From the NCBI GenBank assembly GCA_029263455.1, contig JAJCXM010000032.1, positions 186,001 through 250,000 of the forward strand: a stretch of 64,000 nucleotides of DNA, in the 5' to 3' direction. Positions within the stretch are counted from its first letter, which is position 1; every line of letters begins with the position of its first letter. Under the pieces are notes generated by a model. The model did no database searches. It was not told the origin of the DNA and saw nothing but the letters and a program-made list of their open reading frames with translations. The position numbers and the translations under genes were made by a program. Source of the DNA: Holophagae bacterium. Lineage in GTDB: Bacteria > Acidobacteriota > Holophagae > Acanthopleuribacterales > Acanthopleuribacteraceae. Positions 3,180 through 55,141 of the stretch are shown one piece after another.

Positions 3180-5452
3180 GTTAACTGCTCCTCAAATGGC
3201 GTTCGTGTAATGCAGACGACGCTAGGTCGTGGAACATCTCCCAATTGCTTGCTAGGAAAGTTACTCCCGATTGGGACTTTGCGTTGCTGTGTTTGGTAGT
3301 TTCCTTGTCGGTCTCGTAACCTAATTGGCCGAATGGTATCAGGAACCGGATCAGTACGTGTTCCGTGTAGTTCGCCAGGATGTTGGACAGACAAGATCAG
3401 GCTTTGGCAGTCGGCTGAAAAGGTTGGCCCCGTCAATTCGGCTTCACATGGTGCCACCGCAAATAGGGCAGGAACACCTGCCGATGGTCCGGAGGTTGGC
3501 ACCATAAATATGGAGTTGTTGCCAAAAACGCCTTGGTATACGGAGCTTCCTGGTTTTACTTCGCTACCGTCGCTGTTATCGTTGAGCGATCCAGTTGAAA
3601 CATCGCAAACGATCCATAGTTGTTGGTTCTTGTCGAAGATCAAATTGTCCGGGCAGGCGAAGCCAGCACCACCGTCTGCTAGTTCACCGGACTGAATAAA
3701 GCGACCCCAGGTGAAGGTGTTGTCCTGGTTTGACAGGTCGTCAAGACGCATGACACATCCATATCTCTTTGAGGTGGGATCGACCGCTTCTGGAAAAACT
3801 ATTCTTGAGGGTGAACCTTCCAAACTGGTTATGGCATCGGTGAAAGCAATATATATGGAACCGTCCTGGGGATGGACTTCTAAGTCTTCGGGTCGAGCAC
3901 TAGGTGTAGCCCCGATCGCATTGGCCATGGCGAACGCGTCCAGATGGATAACGGCCAGTCTCTCTACATCATTGCCTTCGACTAGGTCTCGTAACGTACA
4001 TGTTTCGAATGGCTTTTGGGTGTATTCCTCAATCGACTGTAGCCACTGATCCACTGTTACCTGCGCATATTGTGCCTTTTTGTTGCCTACGGCAACATGT
4101 CCGCCGCCCGGTCGGTTAGGTAACCATAAATGACCACCGCCTGTGAGTTCTGGCTTAGGTACAACTAGAGGAGTATTGAGTTCCAAAGCGACCCAACTTC
4201 CTTTGAAGTTGGCATCAAACCGTGCGGCATAGAGCGTACCATTGCTTAGCAGTTGGCTTGTTTTTGTATCTGACGGATCTGCAACGGTTTCATGACTGAC
4301 ATAACGCCAAACGTGACCACCGCGGCGATCATCACCCATATAGGCCATCAAAGGTTGGCCGTGTTCGGCTCGGAGTGCCACATTTTCGTGTCGAAATCGA
4401 CCTAGCGCGGTGTGTTTGGTCAGTTGTGTCGTGCGAGGGTCCACCTCGCAAACCCACCCGTAATGTCGTCCATCTAATCGTTTTGAAAGGCAGGTACCTG
4501 TTCTCAATAGATGGCTTGGTAGCTTTGATTTACGCTCCGGTGTCACTTTGAAGGAAACATCAAAGCGCTGCCCGTATTGAATCTCGTCGCCGTTTGCCTT
4601 AACGAATTCATCCACGTGATTGTCTATATTTTCTTCACAGGTTAGGAATGTACCCCAAGGAGTCGTCGCGCCAGAGCAATTTCCAAACGTGCCGCGAATC
4701 GGTTCGGTAAGTATGGCGCCGGCAGGTCCTGAGAATAAAGCGGGTCGTGGTGTAATTCGGCCTGAAGTCTTCGTTCGAATAGGCGATATGCGCTTGTGGA
4801 GATTTGAGTCAGCGACAACCTTAAAATGGCCATCACGTTGCCGTTTAACGTGGAGAATTGATACCCCTAACTCGTCCAATACCGCCGCTGCCGTTTCACG
4901 GAGACGGATTTTCAAGTCTGCAGGGCACACATCCATGTTAATCGACCTGCCTACAAAGGAGACGCCATCCACAGATAATTGGGGCCCGTCATCGGACAGA
5001 GTCACTTTAAATTCGGGCACCTTTAGGTCGAGAACGTCAGCAGCTCCTTCTAGCCACGGGCGGGCAGATATTTCTTCGTGATTGACGAATAAATAGAACT
5101 CGTCACGCCGGCCACTTATGGGAACAAGACCTGTATAGTCGCAGTTATAACCAAAGCGGATTTGATTGCCCGCAGGTCCAAAATTGTCGCCCCACTGCGC
5201 GACTATTTGATAACGGAAACCCTTCGGTAGGATTAATGCGTCTCGTGCTTCGAACGCAGTAGCTAATTCGTTGGTCTTGCCAAATACTATGGGTGTCGCT
5301 GGCTCGTCCCAGGCTGGGCGGCCATTTATTGTCCAGCTCATCGATGCTGTCGGTTCGATAGAATGCGTTGGAGAATACTTGCAAGCGCTCGGCGCGATTC
5401 CAAGACTGGCTGTACCCCAGCCGATGTAACTCATGAATTGTCGCCTTTTCAC
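3176..5452 (-). CDS. PhoX-type (DUF839) phosphatase-like protein
   Basis: About 758 residues. The N-terminus MKRRQFMSYIGWGTASLG has a twin-arginine-like RRxFM motif followed by a hydrophobic stretch, so Tat export is likely; Ala/Ser/Cys after it leaves a lipoprotein possible. I prefer the GTG at 5452 because a run of six G lies 8 bases upstream; a GTG at 5461 would leave no spacing. The family signature NCSGATTPWGTFLTCEEN is present, along with FDKNQQLWIVCD and a C-terminal GPTFSADCQSLILSVQHPGE typical of PhoX/DUF839 proteins. PhoX enzymes are calcium- and iron-dependent alkaline phosphatases outside the cytoplasm; not every DUF839 member is proven to be one. The downstream HAD-like gene overlaps by 4 bases. 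Confidence 0.8.
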   Translation of the reverse strand: MKRRQFMSYIGWGTASLGIAPSACKYSPTHSIEPTASMSWTINGRPAWDEPATPIVFGKTNELATAFEARDALILPKGFRYQIVAQWGDNFGPAGNQIRFGYNCDYTGLVPISGRRDEFYLFVNHEEISARPWLEGAADVLDLKVPEFKVTLSDDGPQLSVDGVSFVGRSINMDVCPADLKIRLRETAAAVLDELGVSILHVKRQRDGHFKVVADSNLHKRISPIRTKTSGRITPRPALFSGPAGAILTEPIRGTFGNCSGATTPWGTFLTCEENIDNHVDEFVKANGDEIQYGQRFDVSFKVTPERKSKLPSHLLRTGTCLSKRLDGRHYGWVCEVDPRTTQLTKHTALGRFRHENVALRAEHGQPLMAYMGDDRRGGHVWRYVSHETVADPSDTKTSQLLSNGTLYAARFDANFKGSWVALELNTPLVVPKPELTGGGHLWLPNRPGGGHVAVGNKKAQYAQVTVDQWLQSIEEYTQKPFETCTLRDLVEGNDVERLAVIHLDAFAMANAIGATPSARPEDLEVHPQDGSIYIAFTDAITSLEGSPSRIVFPEAVDPTSKRYGCVMRLDDLSNQDNTFTWGRFIQSGELADGGAGFACPDNLIFDKNQQLWIVCDVSTGSLNDNSDGSEVKPGSSVYQGVFGNNSIFMVPTSGPSAGVPALFAVAPCEAELTGPTFSADCQSLILSVQHPGELHGTRTDPVPDTIRPIRLRDRQGNYQTQQRKVPIGSNFPSKQLGDVPRPSVVCITRTPFEEQLT

Positions 5453-5602
5453 GCCATGCACCCCCCGCTATTTAACCGTAGCCTGGTAATTTGACTATTC
5501 TACTAAAGTTAAGTCATTGTTATAGAGCTATCTAATTCATCAGAACCGAAAGCTCTGCTATCGGAAATGTTTGACCATCATATTATGCATATTGGAGGCG
5601 TT

Positions 5603-7069
5603 ATGTGTCTGATGTGGTTGGTATTGCTGAGTACCGATCCTTCGATTACTTCTGTCGATAAAGAACAGCTTGAGTTGGCCTTTACGCAAGACGAAATGAC
5701 GATATTACGTCTACGTGAGGGACTTCATACAACCTTGGATGCCATGAATGAGACTGGGCTCTTTGATCCAATAGCGAAGAATCAAATATGGTCTCGAGAA
5801 AGGCGTGATCTTGCTCGCCAGACTTGGGCGGTGTGGACAGATTATGTGCTGGGGCTGGAATCCATTAGCCATTTCCACCGTACTTTTGAGGAATTACCAA
5901 CGAATAGTAGAAGCCGTTCCTTCCAGCTCCATCATGCGGCTTTTTTGGCTCAATATCGAACGGCTCTGGACTTGTTAGACAGAATGCATGATGACCCTTC
6001 ATTTGATGTTGTCTTAAATGAAGCAATGCCGCAATCTGGACTTCCAGAAAACACCCTGGCTGGCTTCAAGTTTCGCTTCCTTCACATTAGCATTGCCGCC
6101 CGTTTTGTCACCCTTGGAGCCCTCAACAATGCCCATTCGGATGGCTTTACTGATGCGTTGCGACTGGTTGTTGATGAGGATCGAGCCAGGATCTGGCATC
6201 ACGGCAAAGGGCGGGGTGAGTTGATGACGTTAATCAATGGCGTCAATATCGCGGCTGATGTTGGCCATGACTCATGGTTTCCGATCCAGAAAGGCCTGGC
6301 TAATGCCATGGGAGACGTCCGCGTCATGCGTGGTCATCATTCACTGATTAAGAAAAATCACATGCCGCTTATTGCGCGGCGTATGCGCGCAGGTGACATT
6401 ATGCTCCAGCGGCGTGAGTGGTACCTGTCCAATTTGGGGATACCAGGGTATTGGACTCATGCCGCTCTGTACATCGGAAGTGTCGACGATCGAGCGCTAT
6501 TAAGCCAGCAAACCGATGTTCGTGCGTGGCTTGATGGGTTGGGTCACCAAGGAAAATCCTTAGACCAAGCGGCGATAACTGCTTTTCCTGATATCCATGA
6601 GTTCCTGATAACCAACGATGGGGGCGAGGAGAATCGCGTCATTGAGGCCATAGGGGAAGGGGTTATTTTTGCCAGTTTGGAGCATTCTGCTGCTGCCGAT
6701 TCTTTGGCCGTATTGCGGCCAAAAGTCAAATCCCTTGCTGTTGCGCAGGCGCTATGGCGGGCCTTCCATTTTGTAGGCAGACCCTATGATTATGATTTTG
6801 ACTTCACGACAGATACGGCTCTGGTCTGTTCAGAATTGGTATACAAGGCCTTTGAGGGTTCGTTGGGTCTTAAGTTGATGCCCGTGGCAGGGCGATTGAT
6901 GCTAGCTCCAAACGAAATGGCGCGCGTGCATTCTTTAGAACAGTCGCCCTTTGAATTTGTGCTTTTCTTAGACGGTAATGAGGCTACTGATTCGGCTGTC
7001 TTTAGCGAGGAAGAGGTTTTCAACAAGTCGTGGATGCGTCCGAAGTGGCATATAGTGACCCATCGTTAG
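5603..7069 (+). CDS. YiiX/YebB-like cysteine hydrolase with N-terminal signal
   Basis: About 488 residues. The ATG at 5603 has GGAGG at 5594-5598; an in-frame ATG at 5567 would extend the protein by 12 residues. The N-terminus MCLMWLVLLSTDPSITS is signal-like. The first half is helical and unrecognised. The second half carries the permuted NlpC/P60-like (Peptidase C92, YiiX) pattern: RAGDIMLQRREWYLSNLG and WTHAALYIG supply the histidine, VIEAIGEGVIFASL follows, and ALVCSELVYKAF supplies the cysteine. Family members are thought to cleave peptide or fatty-acyl bonds in the envelope; the substrate here is unknown. It is divergently arranged with PhoX across about 150 bases, and convergent with the Lon-like gene. 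Confidence 0.75.
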   Translation: MCLMWLVLLSTDPSITSVDKEQLELAFTQDEMTILRLREGLHTTLDAMNETGLFDPIAKNQIWSRERRDLARQTWAVWTDYVLGLESISHFHRTFEELPTNSRSRSFQLHHAAFLAQYRTALDLLDRMHDDPSFDVVLNEAMPQSGLPENTLAGFKFRFLHISIAARFVTLGALNNAHSDGFTDALRLVVDEDRARIWHHGKGRGELMTLINGVNIAADVGHDSWFPIQKGLANAMGDVRVMRGHHSLIKKNHMPLIARRMRAGDIMLQRREWYLSNLGIPGYWTHAALYIGSVDDRALLSQQTDVRAWLDGLGHQGKSLDQAAITAFPDIHEFLITNDGGEENRVIEAIGEGVIFASLEHSAAADSLAVLRPKVKSLAVAQALWRAFHFVGRPYDYDFDFTTDTALVCSELVYKAFEGSLGLKLMPVAGRLMLAPNEMARVHSLEQSPFEFVLFLDGNEATDSAVFSEEEVFNKSWMRPKWHIVTHR

Positions 7070-49542: not shown

Positions 49543-50376
49543 ATGCTCACTAAATTGACACGAGTCATGACTGGGAAATCGGCGACCTTTGTTACCTTGG
49601 TCGGGACAATGCTCCTCGCACTTATAGGTTTGTTAGATATTCAAACCGGCTATGAGCTATCGTTCTCAATATTTTATCTATTGCCGATCATGTTCGTAAC
49701 TTGGTTTTCACGAACACGATTGGGATTCGTATTTTGTTTCCTTTCGGCCGTCGTTTGGATGCTCGCAGACCAGAGCTACAGCAACCGATTTATTCCTGTT
49801 TGGAATACGGGCGTGCGTTTTGGGTTCTTTCTGCTTATTGCGTATCTCATGCGTGAATTGAAGATACATCTTGTTGTGGAGCGGAACCGGGCTCGAATCG
49901 ATGGATTGACGAGTCTATTGAATGCGGAGACGTTCCGTCACTTGGTGCAAAACCGTATTGAGTTATCAGCGCGCCAGGAACGGTCGTTGGCTTTGGGTTT
50001 TGTAGATGTTGACAATTTTAAGGCTGTCAATGATCAGCTAGGACATGCTGAAGGCGATCGCGTGTTGAAGATGGTCGGGCAGACACTGAGCGAATGTGTG
50101 CGAACGTCTGATTTGGTGGGACGCATGGGTGGCGATGAGTTTGCCGTCTTACTGTCGGAAACCGAGTTAGGTGCAAGGATTGTATTTGACCGTATCCACG
50201 AACAACTGCAGCTGGTTGCGGGGGCAGAGAACTGGCCAATCGGATTTAGCATGGGTGTCGCCCTGTTTGAGAATGCCCCTGAAAGTGCAGATAATGCCAT
50301 CAAGGTAGCCGATAAACTTATGTACCGTGTTAAGCATCAGGGAAAAAACGGACTGCTGTATGAAATCTGTAGCTAG
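49543..50376 (+). CDS. Membrane-bound diguanylate cyclase (GGDEF)
   Basis: 277 residues. The first 110 residues hold about four membrane helices (ATFVTLVGTMLLALIGLL; LSFSIFYLLPIMFVTWF; LGFVFCFLSAVVWMLA; VRFGFFLLIAYLM). The GGDEF domain begins at ARIDGLTSLLNAETF; the active site is RMGGDEFAVLL, intact. RTSD precedes GGDEF by exactly five residues, the RxxD inhibitory site, so the enzyme should be feedback-inhibited by its product. It makes cyclic di-GMP from GTP; PilZ receptors at 22.6 and 55.9 kb are possible readers. No EAL domain. Confidence 0.92.
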   Translation: MLTKLTRVMTGKSATFVTLVGTMLLALIGLLDIQTGYELSFSIFYLLPIMFVTWFSRTRLGFVFCFLSAVVWMLADQSYSNRFIPVWNTGVRFGFFLLIAYLMRELKIHLVVERNRARIDGLTSLLNAETFRHLVQNRIELSARQERSLALGFVDVDNFKAVNDQLGHAEGDRVLKMVGQTLSECVRTSDLVGRMGGDEFAVLLSETELGARIVFDRIHEQLQLVAGAENWPIGFSMGVALFENAPESADNAIKVADKLMYRVKHQGKNGLLYEICS

Positions 50377-50631
50377 CAAGGGGCAGGTGAATAATTGAAT
50401 ATTATCTGAGCTATCGCATGGGCGGATCTTGCTAACTGAGAGACACTAGCGTGAACCTGATTCAGCGGCCACTTGGCAAGAGATAGAGGGATAGCGAAAA
50501 ATCACGGCCACAAGTCATCTATTGCCTTTGCCATTCTCGCCGCAAATGGTTATGATGGATGCGGTTACCTACTAATTTTCGTACGAATAATCTAAAACGT
50601 TTACGCTGTCTGGAGGCGATTAGGACTCAGT

Positions 50632-52854
50632 ATGGTCCAGATTAATTTCACTGGAAAAGAGATCCTCACCAAGATCGTCTATTATGGGCCGGCGCTTTGT
50701 GGCAAAACCACCAATTTACAGGTGCTCCACAAAATGACCGATCCAGATCGAAAGACTAAGCTCTTTTCGATCAACACAGATCAAGACCGCACGCTATTTT
50801 TTGACCTCTTGCCATTGAGTCTGGGTCGAATTTTTGGCTACCGCATAAAACTGCAAATCTATACGGTGCCAGGTCAAGTTCACTACGCGAGCACGAGACG
50901 AGCTGTGCTGGCTGGGGCCGATGGTGTTGTCTTTATCGCCGACTCGGAGCGTGGAAAAATGGACGATAACCTACAATCGTTCCAGGATCTAAGCGCAAAT
51001 CTTCCGTACAACGGTCTTGATATTGAGTCGATACCCCTGGTTATCCAGTACAACAAGCGCGACCTACAAGACGTGTATTCCTACGTGGAATTGGAACGCA
51101 CGCTTAACTCCTTGAAGGCGCATAGCTATGAGTCGGTAGCGATCAATGGGCAAGGCGTACTCGATACCTTTATTTCCATTTCTAAACGCATGATCAACAA
51201 TGTCGTTGCCCGTTACCGTTTGAACCGAGGCGCAAAAGGAAAAGTAGATTTCGGCGAGCGTTTGGCGCGAGCCATGGAAGAGTTTAGACAACGTGACAGT
51301 GAAGACACAAACCCGGTTGATCTTAGTCGCCTTCAGTTGAAGTTTGGGCACCCAACCGGGTCAAAAATCCCTGATTTGGGTCACAGTCAAGACGGTTCAG
51401 GTACGCAACACGCCGCCATGACTAATGCTGACCTTATTGAACGTGCCGTGGCAGCCAACATGGAGTTGGCCAACCTCTATGTAAAGTTGGATGAGACCAA
51501 ACGCGAACGGGACGAACGAATCAAGCAACTAGAAGCCGTCAACCGCATCGGCGAAACGGTGACGTCGGTGCTGGACATCGATCGATTGTTGAATATCTTG
51601 TGCAAGATTTTAGGCGACCACGCCGGTGATTGTATCTGCATTGCCTTGGTTGAAGGTCGACCCCCAGAGCTCAAGCCACGAGCCGCTTATCGCTTAAAGA
51701 CTGATCCCATCTTTTTGGTTCGATCCGATAAAGGTAAGAGCCTAGCCCATTTACTTGCGCATCAACGGAAAGCGTCTATTGTCAGTGCAGAGAGCAATCC
51801 GGAATGGTTCGATTTCATTCGGCAAAAGTTTTCCACCATTGAAGGTGTCATTTCCATTCCGCTGATGAGTCACCGGCGGTTGTTGGGTCTCATTAACGTC
51901 ATAACGACGGAATCGAAGAGATGTTATGAAGAACATGATTTGGCCTTCTTTTCGGCCACGGCCAAATTCATGGCCTCAGCCATCGAGAACGCGCGTCTTT
52001 ATGGCATGGTTTCGGGACTTAACCGTAACCTTGAGCGCAAAGTTACTGAAATCAATGATCTGAACGTGAAACTTGAAGACAAAATCAAAGATCGTACCCA
52101 AGAACTCCAGTTCGCCAATCGGGCTCTGCAACGTGCCAATGAGGAATTGAAGTTATTAGACAAAACCAAAGATCAATTCATGTCTTTAATTACGCAAGAA
52201 CTGCGTAATCCAATGGGCAGTATCAGTAACAATTTGAAGGGCCTGGCCAAAGGCGATCTCCCGGCTGAACAAAAGGGGAAGTTGGTCGATATTTACCGAA
52301 CAGCAGAGTCGGTCAACCTAACCATTTCTAAGGTCATCCGTCTCTTTAATTTGGAACAAGGCAAGACGCAACTTGCGAACCGATCTATTAAGCTCAATGA
52401 AATCATTCGTGCGGCCTTGCGCGAAGATCGTTATGCCATTAAAGAACGTAAGATACGTATTCTTACCAGAGTCAATGAGGATGTGGTTGTCTCGGCCGAT
52501 CCCGTCTTACTAATTGAAGCGATTCGCCATTTGACTCAGAATGCAATTCGTTATTCGCCAGATGGAGGATCGGTAAAACTTTGGACCGACATCCGGGCCG
52601 GTAAAGTATTGTTCTACATTCGTGACCAAGGGCCAGGAATCCCGGAAGATAGGCGAAATCAGGTCTTTAACAAATATCAAATTGTGCAAGGCGAAGCCTA
52701 TCTTGAGGAAGGGCTTGGTTTAGGGTTACCGATTTCGAGAGCCATTATTGAACGTCACGGTGGAGAAGTTGAATTGCTCGACCCGCCCGGTGCTAAAACG
52801 GATCCTGCCGGTCTGCTGGTTAGGGTTTGGTTACCAATGCCTGATCAAGGCTAA
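50632..52854 (+). CDS. MglA-like GTPase fused to GAF and a histidine kinase-like module lacking the phospho-histidine
   Basis: 740 residues. Residues 1-195 are a small Ras-like GTPase of the MglA type: YYGPALCGKTTNLQVLH (P-loop, 18-34), TVPGQVHYASTRR (78-90) and QYNKRDL (139-145). A linker of about 70 residues follows, then a GAF domain (about 310-455, SVLDIDRLLNILCKI to ASAIENARLY), a coiled coil, and a kinase module. Its dimerisation helix reads KDQFMSLITQELRNPMGS: the histidine of HELR is Gln522. The ATPase half is intact: N-box HLTQNAIRYSP, DQGPGIPEDRR and EEGLGLGLPISRAII. It may thus act by ATP binding or with a partner kinase rather than by autophosphorylation. Confidence 0.9.
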   Translation: MVQINFTGKEILTKIVYYGPALCGKTTNLQVLHKMTDPDRKTKLFSINTDQDRTLFFDLLPLSLGRIFGYRIKLQIYTVPGQVHYASTRRAVLAGADGVVFIADSERGKMDDNLQSFQDLSANLPYNGLDIESIPLVIQYNKRDLQDVYSYVELERTLNSLKAHSYESVAINGQGVLDTFISISKRMINNVVARYRLNRGAKGKVDFGERLARAMEEFRQRDSEDTNPVDLSRLQLKFGHPTGSKIPDLGHSQDGSGTQHAAMTNADLIERAVAANMELANLYVKLDETKRERDERIKQLEAVNRIGETVTSVLDIDRLLNILCKILGDHAGDCICIALVEGRPPELKPRAAYRLKTDPIFLVRSDKGKSLAHLLAHQRKASIVSAESNPEWFDFIRQKFSTIEGVISIPLMSHRRLLGLINVITTESKRCYEEHDLAFFSATAKFMASAIENARLYGMVSGLNRNLERKVTEINDLNVKLEDKIKDRTQELQFANRALQRANEELKLLDKTKDQFMSLITQELRNPMGSISNNLKGLAKGDLPAEQKGKLVDIYRTAESVNLTISKVIRLFNLEQGKTQLANRSIKLNEIIRAALREDRYAIKERKIRILTRVNEDVVVSADPVLLIEAIRHLTQNAIRYSPDGGSVKLWTDIRAGKVLFYIRDQGPGIPEDRRNQVFNKYQIVQGEAYLEEGLGLGLPISRAIIERHGGEVELLDPPGAKTDPAGLLVRVWLPMPDQG

Positions 52855-52912: not shown

Positions 52913-54346
52913 GTGGCGCAACCTAGAGATCAATGGGGCAGTCGTCTTGGTTTTGTGCTAGCTGCGTCGGGATCGGCAGTTGGACTGGGTAACCTTTGGA
53001 AATTCCCATATATCGCGTGGAATAATCATGGTGGCGCATTTGTGCTTATCTATTTGGCTTGTATCCTGGCTGTTGGCATGCCCGTCATGATGTCCGAAAT
53101 TATCATTGGCCGCAGGGCGCAAACCAGTCCCGTACCAGCCTTTGGCGTTTTGGGCCATCCACGCTGGGCGTTTGTCGGTTGGTTAGGTGTGGCGTCTGGT
53201 ATTGTCATTCTCGCCTTTTATGCGGTGATTGCTGGTTGGTCGATTTCGTCGTTTCTGCAATGTATGAAATGGTCTTTTACTGGCTATGAAACACCGGATC
53301 CGAACGCGTTTGGTGATTTTTTGGGCCAGGGCACGCTGCAAGTCTTTTTGACAGGCATATTCTTGACGGTCACCTCGTTCATTGTCTCTCGTGGTATTTC
53401 CAGAGGTATTGAAAAAGCCACAAAAATCCTCATGCCCGTGTTGCTGAGCATCATGGTGTTACTCGTTTTGAATTCGTTCTCCTTGGCTGGCTTTGGCCAA
53501 GCGCTAGGTTTTCTCTTTAAACCTGACTTCAGCGAAGTGACCGGCCATTCGGTCTTAGAGGCTTTAGGCCATGCCTTCTTTACTTTGTCGCTTGGTATGG
53601 GCGCCATGATTACCTACGGCTCGTATATGAAGAAATCGGAGTCCATTACTAAGGCGTCCGCTGCCATCGTTGTCCTTGACACGGTGATCGCGTTGGCTGC
53701 CTGTATCATTATGTATTCCATTATTTTCACCGTGCCAGAACTTCAAAATAATGTAGGCAAGTCGACGGTAGGCATGCTCTTCGTCACTTTGCCGGAGATG
53801 TTCTATACCAAAATGAGTTTGGGTGTCGTTTTGGGGCCTGTTTTTTATGTTCTCGTCGCATTCGCCGCTTTATCATCAACCATCTCGTTGTTGGAAGTTG
53901 TGGTCTCGTTGTTGGTCGATAAGATTAAGTGGTCCCGTAACAAGTCAACCGCGGTATCGGCCCTCGGTATCATGTCCTTAAGCGTCTTTTGCGCATTATC
54001 TAATGGTGCTTGGTCATGGGCTTCAACATTCGAGTTTTTTGGGCACGGCGAAAAGGGGATCGGCCGTCTATTCAACAACAGGCTGTTTGCTGATAAACAA
54101 GGGTTTCTAAATCTATTTGATCACTTCTCAGCCAACTGGATGTTGCCGGTTGGCGGACTGTTTATCACGTTGTACGCCGGTTGGATCCTGAAGCGTCCTG
54201 AGAGCCTTGAGGAACTTGCACTTACCCGTGAGGATGGGACCGTTCATTGGTTCTACTCGACCTGGTTATTTTTTGTTCGATTTGTCGCGCCACTTGGTAT
54301 TGGGTGGATTATTCTTAAGGTTATTATGGGGGCGGACTTCTCTTAA
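52913..54346 (+). CDS. Sodium:neurotransmitter symporter family (SNF) transporter
   Basis: 477 residues with about eleven to twelve membrane helices. The sodium and substrate site appears in the opening GFVLAASGSAVGLGNLWKFPYIAWNNHGGAFVLIYL, the family signature. The GTG at 52913 is preceded by GAGGAGG. Substrates in this family are amino acids or amines; the exact one cannot be told, but a sodium-driven uptake system fits a marine or saline habitat. mqnA follows after 3 bases. Confidence 0.93.
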   Translation: MAQPRDQWGSRLGFVLAASGSAVGLGNLWKFPYIAWNNHGGAFVLIYLACILAVGMPVMMSEIIIGRRAQTSPVPAFGVLGHPRWAFVGWLGVASGIVILAFYAVIAGWSISSFLQCMKWSFTGYETPDPNAFGDFLGQGTLQVFLTGIFLTVTSFIVSRGISRGIEKATKILMPVLLSIMVLLVLNSFSLAGFGQALGFLFKPDFSEVTGHSVLEALGHAFFTLSLGMGAMITYGSYMKKSESITKASAAIVVLDTVIALAACIIMYSIIFTVPELQNNVGKSTVGMLFVTLPEMFYTKMSLGVVLGPVFYVLVAFAALSSTISLLEVVVSLLVDKIKWSRNKSTAVSALGIMSLSVFCALSNGAWSWASTFEFFGHGEKGIGRLFNNRLFADKQGFLNLFDHFSANWMLPVGGLFITLYAGWILKRPESLEELALTREDGTVHWFYSTWLFFVRFVAPLGIGWIILKVIMGADFS

Positions 54347-54349
54347 ACC

Positions 54350-55141
54350 GTGCGTAGTTCACTTTCGATTATCGATTATCTCAACGCATTGCCCTTGAAC
54401 CTCGCGTTCAAGGACCATGTCTTTGGCGACCAGATCGGGTTGACGTTCGATTACCCATCCCAATGTGCGGATAACCTGGCCGCGGGTCGCGTAGATGGCG
54501 GTCTTATCTCGTCCATCGAATACCAACGCATTCCTAATTTGACCATTGCGCCCGGGATCTGTATCGCCGCCAAGAAAAGGGTCAAATCGGTTGTTATCGT
54601 TTCTCGAAAGGCGCTTGAAGATGTTGAGATGATCGCCGTGGACCGCTTCTCGCGATCCTCTGTCACCCTAGTCGAAATCCTTTTTTGGCGCCAATTCAAA
54701 AGACGTTTGAAGATCGTGGCAATGGCACCTGATCGAGAAGCTATGTTAGCAGTTGCCGACGCGGCCCTCATCATTGGCGATGCCGCGTTGCGGTTGTCGC
54801 CCAGTGATGAGGCGATTCATGATCTGGCGGCCTGGTGGTATGCGGAAACAGGTCTATCGTTTGTGTTTGCGTTTTGGGCTTTACGTGAAAATGACAACGA
54901 CCGTTGGCTAGCCAGTTGTCTCACCGATGCTAAAGAATATGGTAAACGTCATTTGAGTGAGCGCTGGGATGCGGCGGCCCGGCGTTGGGGCATCGCTGAA
55001 AGCGATATTGAACATTACCTCACACAGGTGATCCAATATGACATGGGCGATGAAGAGCACAAAAGCTTGGAAACCTATTATCGCTACGCTAAGGAATGCG
55101 GTGCCATTGCCCATATAAAACCATTACGATTTACGGGCTAG
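54350..55141 (+). CDS. mqnA: Chorismate dehydratase (MqnA)
   Basis: 263 residues. It converts chorismate to 3-enolpyruvyl-benzoate, first step of the futalosine route to menaquinone. The opening SIIDYLNALPLNLAF, GRVDGGLISSIEYQRI, CIAAKKRVKSVVIVSRK and ALIIGDAALRLSP are family motifs. The GTG at 54350 follows the SNF gene closely. mqnB, mqnC and mqnD are not in the window. The 3' end overlaps the convergent orphan gene by 11 bases. Confidence 0.88.
   Translation: MRSSLSIIDYLNALPLNLAFKDHVFGDQIGLTFDYPSQCADNLAAGRVDGGLISSIEYQRIPNLTIAPGICIAAKKRVKSVVIVSRKALEDVEMIAVDRFSRSSVTLVEILFWRQFKRRLKIVAMAPDREAMLAVADAALIIGDAALRLSPSDEAIHDLAAWWYAETGLSFVFAFWALRENDNDRWLASCLTDAKEYGKRHLSERWDAAARRWGIAESDIEHYLTQVIQYDMGDEEHKSLETYYRYAKECGAIAHIKPLRFTG

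Follow-up and report, generated by a model that had tools for sequence, protein, structure and literature searches.

The locus described here raises the question of what a histidine-kinase core contributes to a signalling protein when the histidine that it would phosphorylate is absent. Within the window (the whole 64,000-nucleotide stretch of Holophagae bacterium DNA that was analysed), an open reading frame with an ATG start encodes a fusion protein of 740 amino acids. Pfam matches, together with a match to MglA, give the domain order as MglA-type GTPase, linker, GAF, helical stretch, HisKA and HATPase_c:

50632..52854, + strand: whole fusion gene, 740 aa (orthologue L003 82% identical)
50632..51225, + strand: MglA-type GTPase, residues 1-198, with P-loop, Arg53/Thr54, TVPGQ82 and NKRD144 (PDB MglA 6hjh; motif residues)
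51226..51573, + strand: linker, residues 199-314, its end coiled-coil-like by eye (sequence)
51574..51990, + strand: GAF domain, residues 315-453 (Pfam GAF_2 at 316-452, E 1.4e-6; GAF_3 also matched)
51991..52167, + strand: signalling helix, residues 454-512, a putative coiled coil (by eye; weak coiled-coil Pfam match at 464-522)
52168..52362, + strand: HisKA (DHp) domain without histidine, residues 513-577 (Pfam HisKA, E 1.3e-7)
52195..52197, + strand: codon CAA for Gln522, the phosphoacceptor position (alignments to homologues and solved kinases)
52498..52842, + strand: HATPase_c with N, G1, F and G2 boxes, residues 623-737 (Pfam, E 3.3e-18; motifs)

The Arf/Ras match of the GTPase part is weak in Pfam, and comparison of residues 3-189 with solved Myxococcus MglA (PDB 6hjh) yielded E 1.1e-57. 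Residues G19, K25, T26, R53, T54, Q82, N141, K142 and D144 are all present, and the protein carries the signatures of MglA-type GTPases, namely the P-loop GxxxxGKT, the switch-1 pair Arg53/Thr54, TVPGQ and NKxD. Arg53 and Thr54 of Myxococcus MglA are described as switch-1 residues moved by MglB, and the exchange Q82L as abolishing hydrolysis (PMC6876712). These matches and motifs confirm the earlier note, which had read the protein as an MglA-like GTPase with a GAF domain and a kinase module lacking its histidine.

The DHp helix of the window protein reads KDQFMSLITQELRNP, and direct alignments place Gln522 opposite the histidine of solved kinases, so that the phosphoacceptor expected of a HisKA domain is missing. 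There is no histidine anywhere between residues 435 and 633, so that another DHp histidine was rejected as a substitute acceptor. The ATP-binding half, on the other hand, is intact, as had been noted before together with the glutamine: the ATP-site residues N637, D665, G667 and G669 and the sequence GLGLGL are all in place, and the N, G1 and G2 boxes of HATPase_c are recognisable.

An error of sequencing or assembly at codon 522 has practically no probability left. An independent metagenome-assembled genome of the same genus (HKST-UBA04, G001) contains a fusion that is 82% identical (L003), reads LLTQELRNP and encodes the glutamine by CAG rather than CAA; the use of a different codon refutes the error, for which no supporting evidence was found. 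The protein of the sister genus (L007 of G002) is 66% identical to the window protein in its GTPase and 58% in its GAF domain, but it has lost part of the histidine region and all three of the N, G1 and G2 boxes; Pfam shows neither HisKA nor HATPase there, only GAF and GTPase. All six fusions of family f3, another family of the same class (L008-L013), read MSHELRTP or MSHELKTP. Since the histidine is kept there, it is ancestral and was lost in the lineage of the window. Histidine in sister species had been proposed as the sign of a recent loss or a sequencing error; the same genus has glutamine and the sister genus a degenerate kinase half, while the histidine does occur in f3. As read from these sequences, histidine autophosphorylation has indeed been lost, and the loss is fixed within the genus and common to its relatives. 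The f3 proteins L008-L010 present the reverse of the window protein, with the histidine kept but the G2 box altered (RGLRLSLH).

Profile searches covered 396 genomes of the phylum, then individual classes (148, 6, 2 and 41 genomes), and were combined with the relatives collected earlier. The resulting sample from this one phylum comprises 62 fusions, 57 of them with a kinase half; it excludes three of the 33 genomes of the class search whose locus was not returned (G488; G497 and G475 with partial matches), G260 (contig end), G274 (partial), the second copies L184-L186, the fragment L060 (contig end, histidine present) and all members of a second fusion family (family B, below). At the position of residue 522, the 57 kinase-bearing proteins have H in 36, S in 4, L in 4, A in 3, T in 3, Q in 2, E in 2, D in 1, N in 1 and a gap in 1. 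Gln522 is thus no isolated case: 21 of 57 sampled fusions are without the histidine. The residue is absent throughout f1 (3/3), f18 (4/4) and f35 (2/2) and from 12 of the 15 f45 proteins; it is present in the other three of f45 and in all members of f3 (6/6), f76 (15/15), f8 (2/2), f80 (1/1), f26 (6/6), f65 (1/1) and f56 (2/2). On a quick tree that leaves out the kinase columns and uses GTPase, linker and GAF domain, and whose deep branches are weak, the histidine state changes at least four times, or is lost five times if regain is disallowed.

The eleven motif positions of the GTPase signature are identical in 62 of 62 proteins. The ATP motifs N637, D665, G667, G669 and G696 are retained in 20 of the 21 proteins without histidine, L007 being the exception, and some histidine-bearing proteins have weakened ATP boxes (GLRLSL in L008-L010; no G1 glycines in L169 and L171). 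Five f6 proteins (L177, L178, L180-L182) consist of GTPase and GAF domain without a kinase half, at about 450 aa. The second copies L184 and L186 are likewise GTPase-GAF proteins of about 450 aa lacking the kinase half.

If pseudokinases were simply common in these bacteria, the pattern could be due to chance. This explanation was rejected, as the histidine is present in 135 of 137 other HisKA proteins from four genomes (the window genome, G322, G396 and G485; the HisKA proteins of G100 were left out), compared with 36 of 57 fusions. The Fisher p of 5e-11 is only a guide, because the proteins are related and the PF00512 search favours kinases with histidine; moreover, the fusions of G396 and G100 were absent from its results, and it may miss kinases without histidine, making the contrast an upper bound. 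G322, G396 and G485 contributed 90 of 90 with histidine and the window genome 43 of 45, plus two of two detected by BLAST alone. The two exceptions of the window genome read SERIRQP (L298) and IEDLKSP (L299), with N and G boxes recognisable in both:

G000:C8:226500-229500, - strand: L298, HisKA protein without histidine
G000:C12:49500-52000, + strand: L299, HisKA protein without histidine

The window genome also encodes a paralogous fusion of GTPase, PAS and HATPase domains without the histidine (L131:1520-3421, - strand, G000:C8; Pfam). In this family B, of which the 28 proteins counted are a part of those existing, the histidine position is empty in every one of the 7 f1 proteins and occupied by histidine in 16 of 21 f2 proteins, so that the same trend is visible in two families. 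All 16 of these f2 proteins carry a receiver-like VDDE motif in their C-terminal part, as judged by motif match only.

How strongly the kinase half is still constrained bears on the possibility that GTPase and GAF domain form the working protein and that the kinase half is a remnant on its way out, as in the sister genus. Between the window protein and L003, dN is 0.069 for the GTPase, 0.090 for the linker, 0.068 for the GAF domain, 0.205 for DHp and 0.263 for the catalytic domain, with dS mostly saturated. DHp and catalytic domain thus change three to four times faster than GTPase and GAF domain in this lineage, which fits such decay, as do the missing boxes of G002 and the kinase-less proteins of f6. 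Against it, the reading frame has stayed open, and two species whose synonymous sites are mostly saturated still share 52 of 62 ATP-box residues compared with 38 of 76 other catalytic-domain residues (p=3e-5); the ATP boxes also persist in 20 of the 21 proteins lacking the histidine. Taken together, dN and ATP-box identity indicate that the kinase half is held more loosely than the GTPase while its ATP site is still maintained, and we regard a remnant as less likely than not, yet as a serious competing reading. Among the 22 pairs compared, the DHp/GAF ratio of dN tends to be higher without the histidine (0.60-3.03, 10 pairs) than with it (0.49-2.02, 12 pairs), with overlapping ranges.

The surroundings of the gene were compared between genomes:

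50528..50556, + strand: promoter-like TTGCCA-17-TATGAT (weak: 3 matches, 3.4 expected by chance)
52913..54346, + strand: sodium:neurotransmitter symporter, 58 bases downstream of the fusion (Pfam SNF)
54350..55141, + strand: menaquinone biosynthesis protein, VitK2_biosynth family (Pfam)

A sequence similar to the promoter-like one was found by eye upstream of L003. The symporter gene lies directly downstream of the fusion in three genomes of the family (window, G001 and G002). The menaquinone-biosynthesis gene, which follows the symporter gene in the window, is directly downstream of the histidine-bearing f3 orthologue L286, and these common neighbours support the orthology of the fusions. Upstream, a GGDEF protein is encoded at 49543-50376, which does not adjoin the gene in L003. 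In a Robl_LC7 search of the genome, the 64 kb window gave no roadblock match. Both matches in the genome are on other contigs (C38 and C4), in line with the earlier statement that no MglB-type GAP adjoins the fusion, and the C38 match sits beside an mglA gene, so that an MglB-type gene is present elsewhere. The second roadblock protein is located next to a TPR protein (L130:4561-4908 and 4901-6112, - strand, G000:C4), and two further long-tailed MglA paralogues (370 and 440 aa) are encoded at L036 (G000:C38) and L037 (G000:C8). At the stop of an f18 fusion without histidine, a TPR protein with DUF4388 begins (L289:8879-10429, + strand); in Myxococcus, the TPR protein SgmX is reported to act with MglA.

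Receiver genes were searched with a nine-sequence profile in the fetched flanks, mostly 1.5 kb. A receiver ORF was detected for 28 of the 36 fusions with histidine and for 0 of the 21 without, and all 35 receiver ORFs near fusions are on the strand of the fusion. Pfam confirmed stand-alone receivers in the three that were scanned (L290 and L291 twice), and in several f76 cases the sole match is to a longer ORF upstream. The eight histidine-bearing fusions without a receiver nearby are the six of f3, the nearest outgroup, along with L132 and L139. The association (Fisher p=2.6e-9) is confounded with ancestry: on the tree, the receiver state changes twice and the histidine state four times, and the three independent pairs on starred branches cannot reach 0.05. 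We therefore rejected it as proof of coupling and treat it as a lead; the presence of a receiver gene is suggestively linked with retention of the histidine. Every loss of the histidine falls in a lineage without an adjoining receiver, which would fit an order of receiver, then histidine, then kinase.

With the same profile, no receiver ORF was found in the 64 kb window, so that the nearby cognate receiver, a common if not strictly required feature of HisKA kinases, is lacking. This argues against a glutamine version that dephosphorylates the response regulator of another kinase under control of GAF domain and GTPase. E523 and N526 are retained in both members of the genus, and CrdS H371A is described as having lost kinase activity while keeping reduced phosphatase activity, for which the position equivalent to N526 is required (PMC3510030); yet E523 and N526 are retained together in only 7 of the 21 proteins without histidine, and PleC H610A is reported to have neither activity. 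A phosphatase is on balance improbable. Still less probable is a heterodimer in which the ATP domain would phosphorylate a partner kinase on its histidine. The ATP boxes are intact, the genome holds 45 other HisKA matches with histidine, and in one f76 genome a HisKA-HATPase gene overlaps the fusion upstream, but no kinase gene was present among the immediate neighbours scanned with Pfam.

The explanation that we favour, at slightly better than even confidence, is a single-chain GTPase switch whose kinase half has repeatedly ceased to be a phosphotransferring enzyme and become a nucleotide-binding input or scaffold, resembling DivL of Caulobacter. Output would probably be the GTPase switch and not phosphate transfer. 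Here, the MglA-type GTPase would receive its input from the histidine-kinase-like core, the coiled coils and the GAF domain, which would also form the dimer scaffold. The core, derived from a histidine-bearing ancestor and apparently without phosphotransfer in the window lineage, would most likely signal through bound ATP/ADP, a bound partner or both, the partner being a receiver protein if DivL is a guide. Binding may shift the dimer and the helices back to GAF domain and GTPase and thereby alter nucleotide state or effector access, while GTP hydrolysis could be stimulated in trans by the MglB of the genome. A role in motility or polarity may be proposed from MglA alone.

That the conserved function lies in the GTPase end is suggested by its invariance in 62 of 62 proteins, the loss of the histidine in 21 of 57, the five kinase-less proteins and the degenerate core of G002. 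The retained ATP boxes, the distribution of receiver ORFs, the histidine of the other HisKA proteins and the precedent of DivL also speak for this explanation. Several points count against the favoured explanation: the faster dN of the kinase half (0.205 for DHp, 0.263 for the catalytic domain) fits decay as well, the receiver association loses significance when ancestry is taken into account, eight histidine-bearing fusions (six of them f3) have no receiver nearby, and the CA domain of DivL is reported to be dispensable (PMC4211667). The main inference of the earlier note, output by a route other than autophosphorylation, stands with the loss of the histidine, although phosphatase action and decay of the kinase half were missing from its list.

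More tentatively, and with less than even confidence, MglA-kinase fusions may form a class of signalling GTPases whose grafted two-component core was made, in several lineages of one phylum, into an allosteric sensor of nucleotide or phospho-receiver feeding into a Ras-like switch, so that two-component signalling would run opposite to its usual direction; losses would have proceeded from receiver gene to histidine to whole core. The fusions offer a natural series on one GTPase chain, from histidine with receiver through histidine without receiver and no histidine to no kinase motifs. With it, one can test by which steps a bacterial kinase turns into a pseudokinase. One can also test whether the core of a histidine kinase directly drives a Ras-like switch by a change of shape without phosphate transfer.

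Among known systems, the accessible parts of a survey of prokaryotic Ras-like GTPases record Group 1 MglA in Acidobacteria and describe no such fusion (PMC4316618). Titles and abstract openings of the literature on MglA and on pseudo-histidine kinases revealed no work on such fusions, a coverage that scarcely extends to subscription journals and leaves absence unproven. The GTPase part is closest to the Group 1 Ras-like MglA of Myxococcus and Thermus, sharing all catalytic residues (E 1e-57). Solved MglA proteins are single domains of about 200 aa, whereas this GTPase is fused to GAF, HisKA and HATPase domains and has no mglB beside it. In Myxococcus, the receiver protein RomR is reported to feed MglA. 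The actinobacterial conservons (CvnA-D) also combine an MglA-type GTPase with a histidine kinase within a single pathway (PMC13343842, PMC4316618). They differ in using four separate proteins, whose genes (kinase, roadblock, CvnC and GTPase) share an operon, and in a kinase that is described as having its histidine (CvnA8 H183); the window has one fusion and no roadblock gene. Corynebacterium ChrS offers a further likeness, as a version of this histidine kinase without kinase function is reported to have a phenotype nonetheless. To our knowledge, this pseudokinase version has no GTPase.

The nearest tested precedent is DivL, whose structure (PDB 4q20) matches the kinase half of the window protein with E 6.5e-16. 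Both have another residue in place of the histidine and retain the N and G boxes; DivL differs in having PAS domains and no GTPase, where the window protein has a GAF domain and a GTPase. In DivL, tyrosine (alanine in one orthologue) replaces the histidine, the protein is described as working without kinase activity, and its core senses a phosphorylated receiver (PMC4211667). DivL orthologues are reported to carry other residues at this position and often to lack DHp-CA in species without that receiver (PMC4211667), a loss that parallels the series seen in the fusions.
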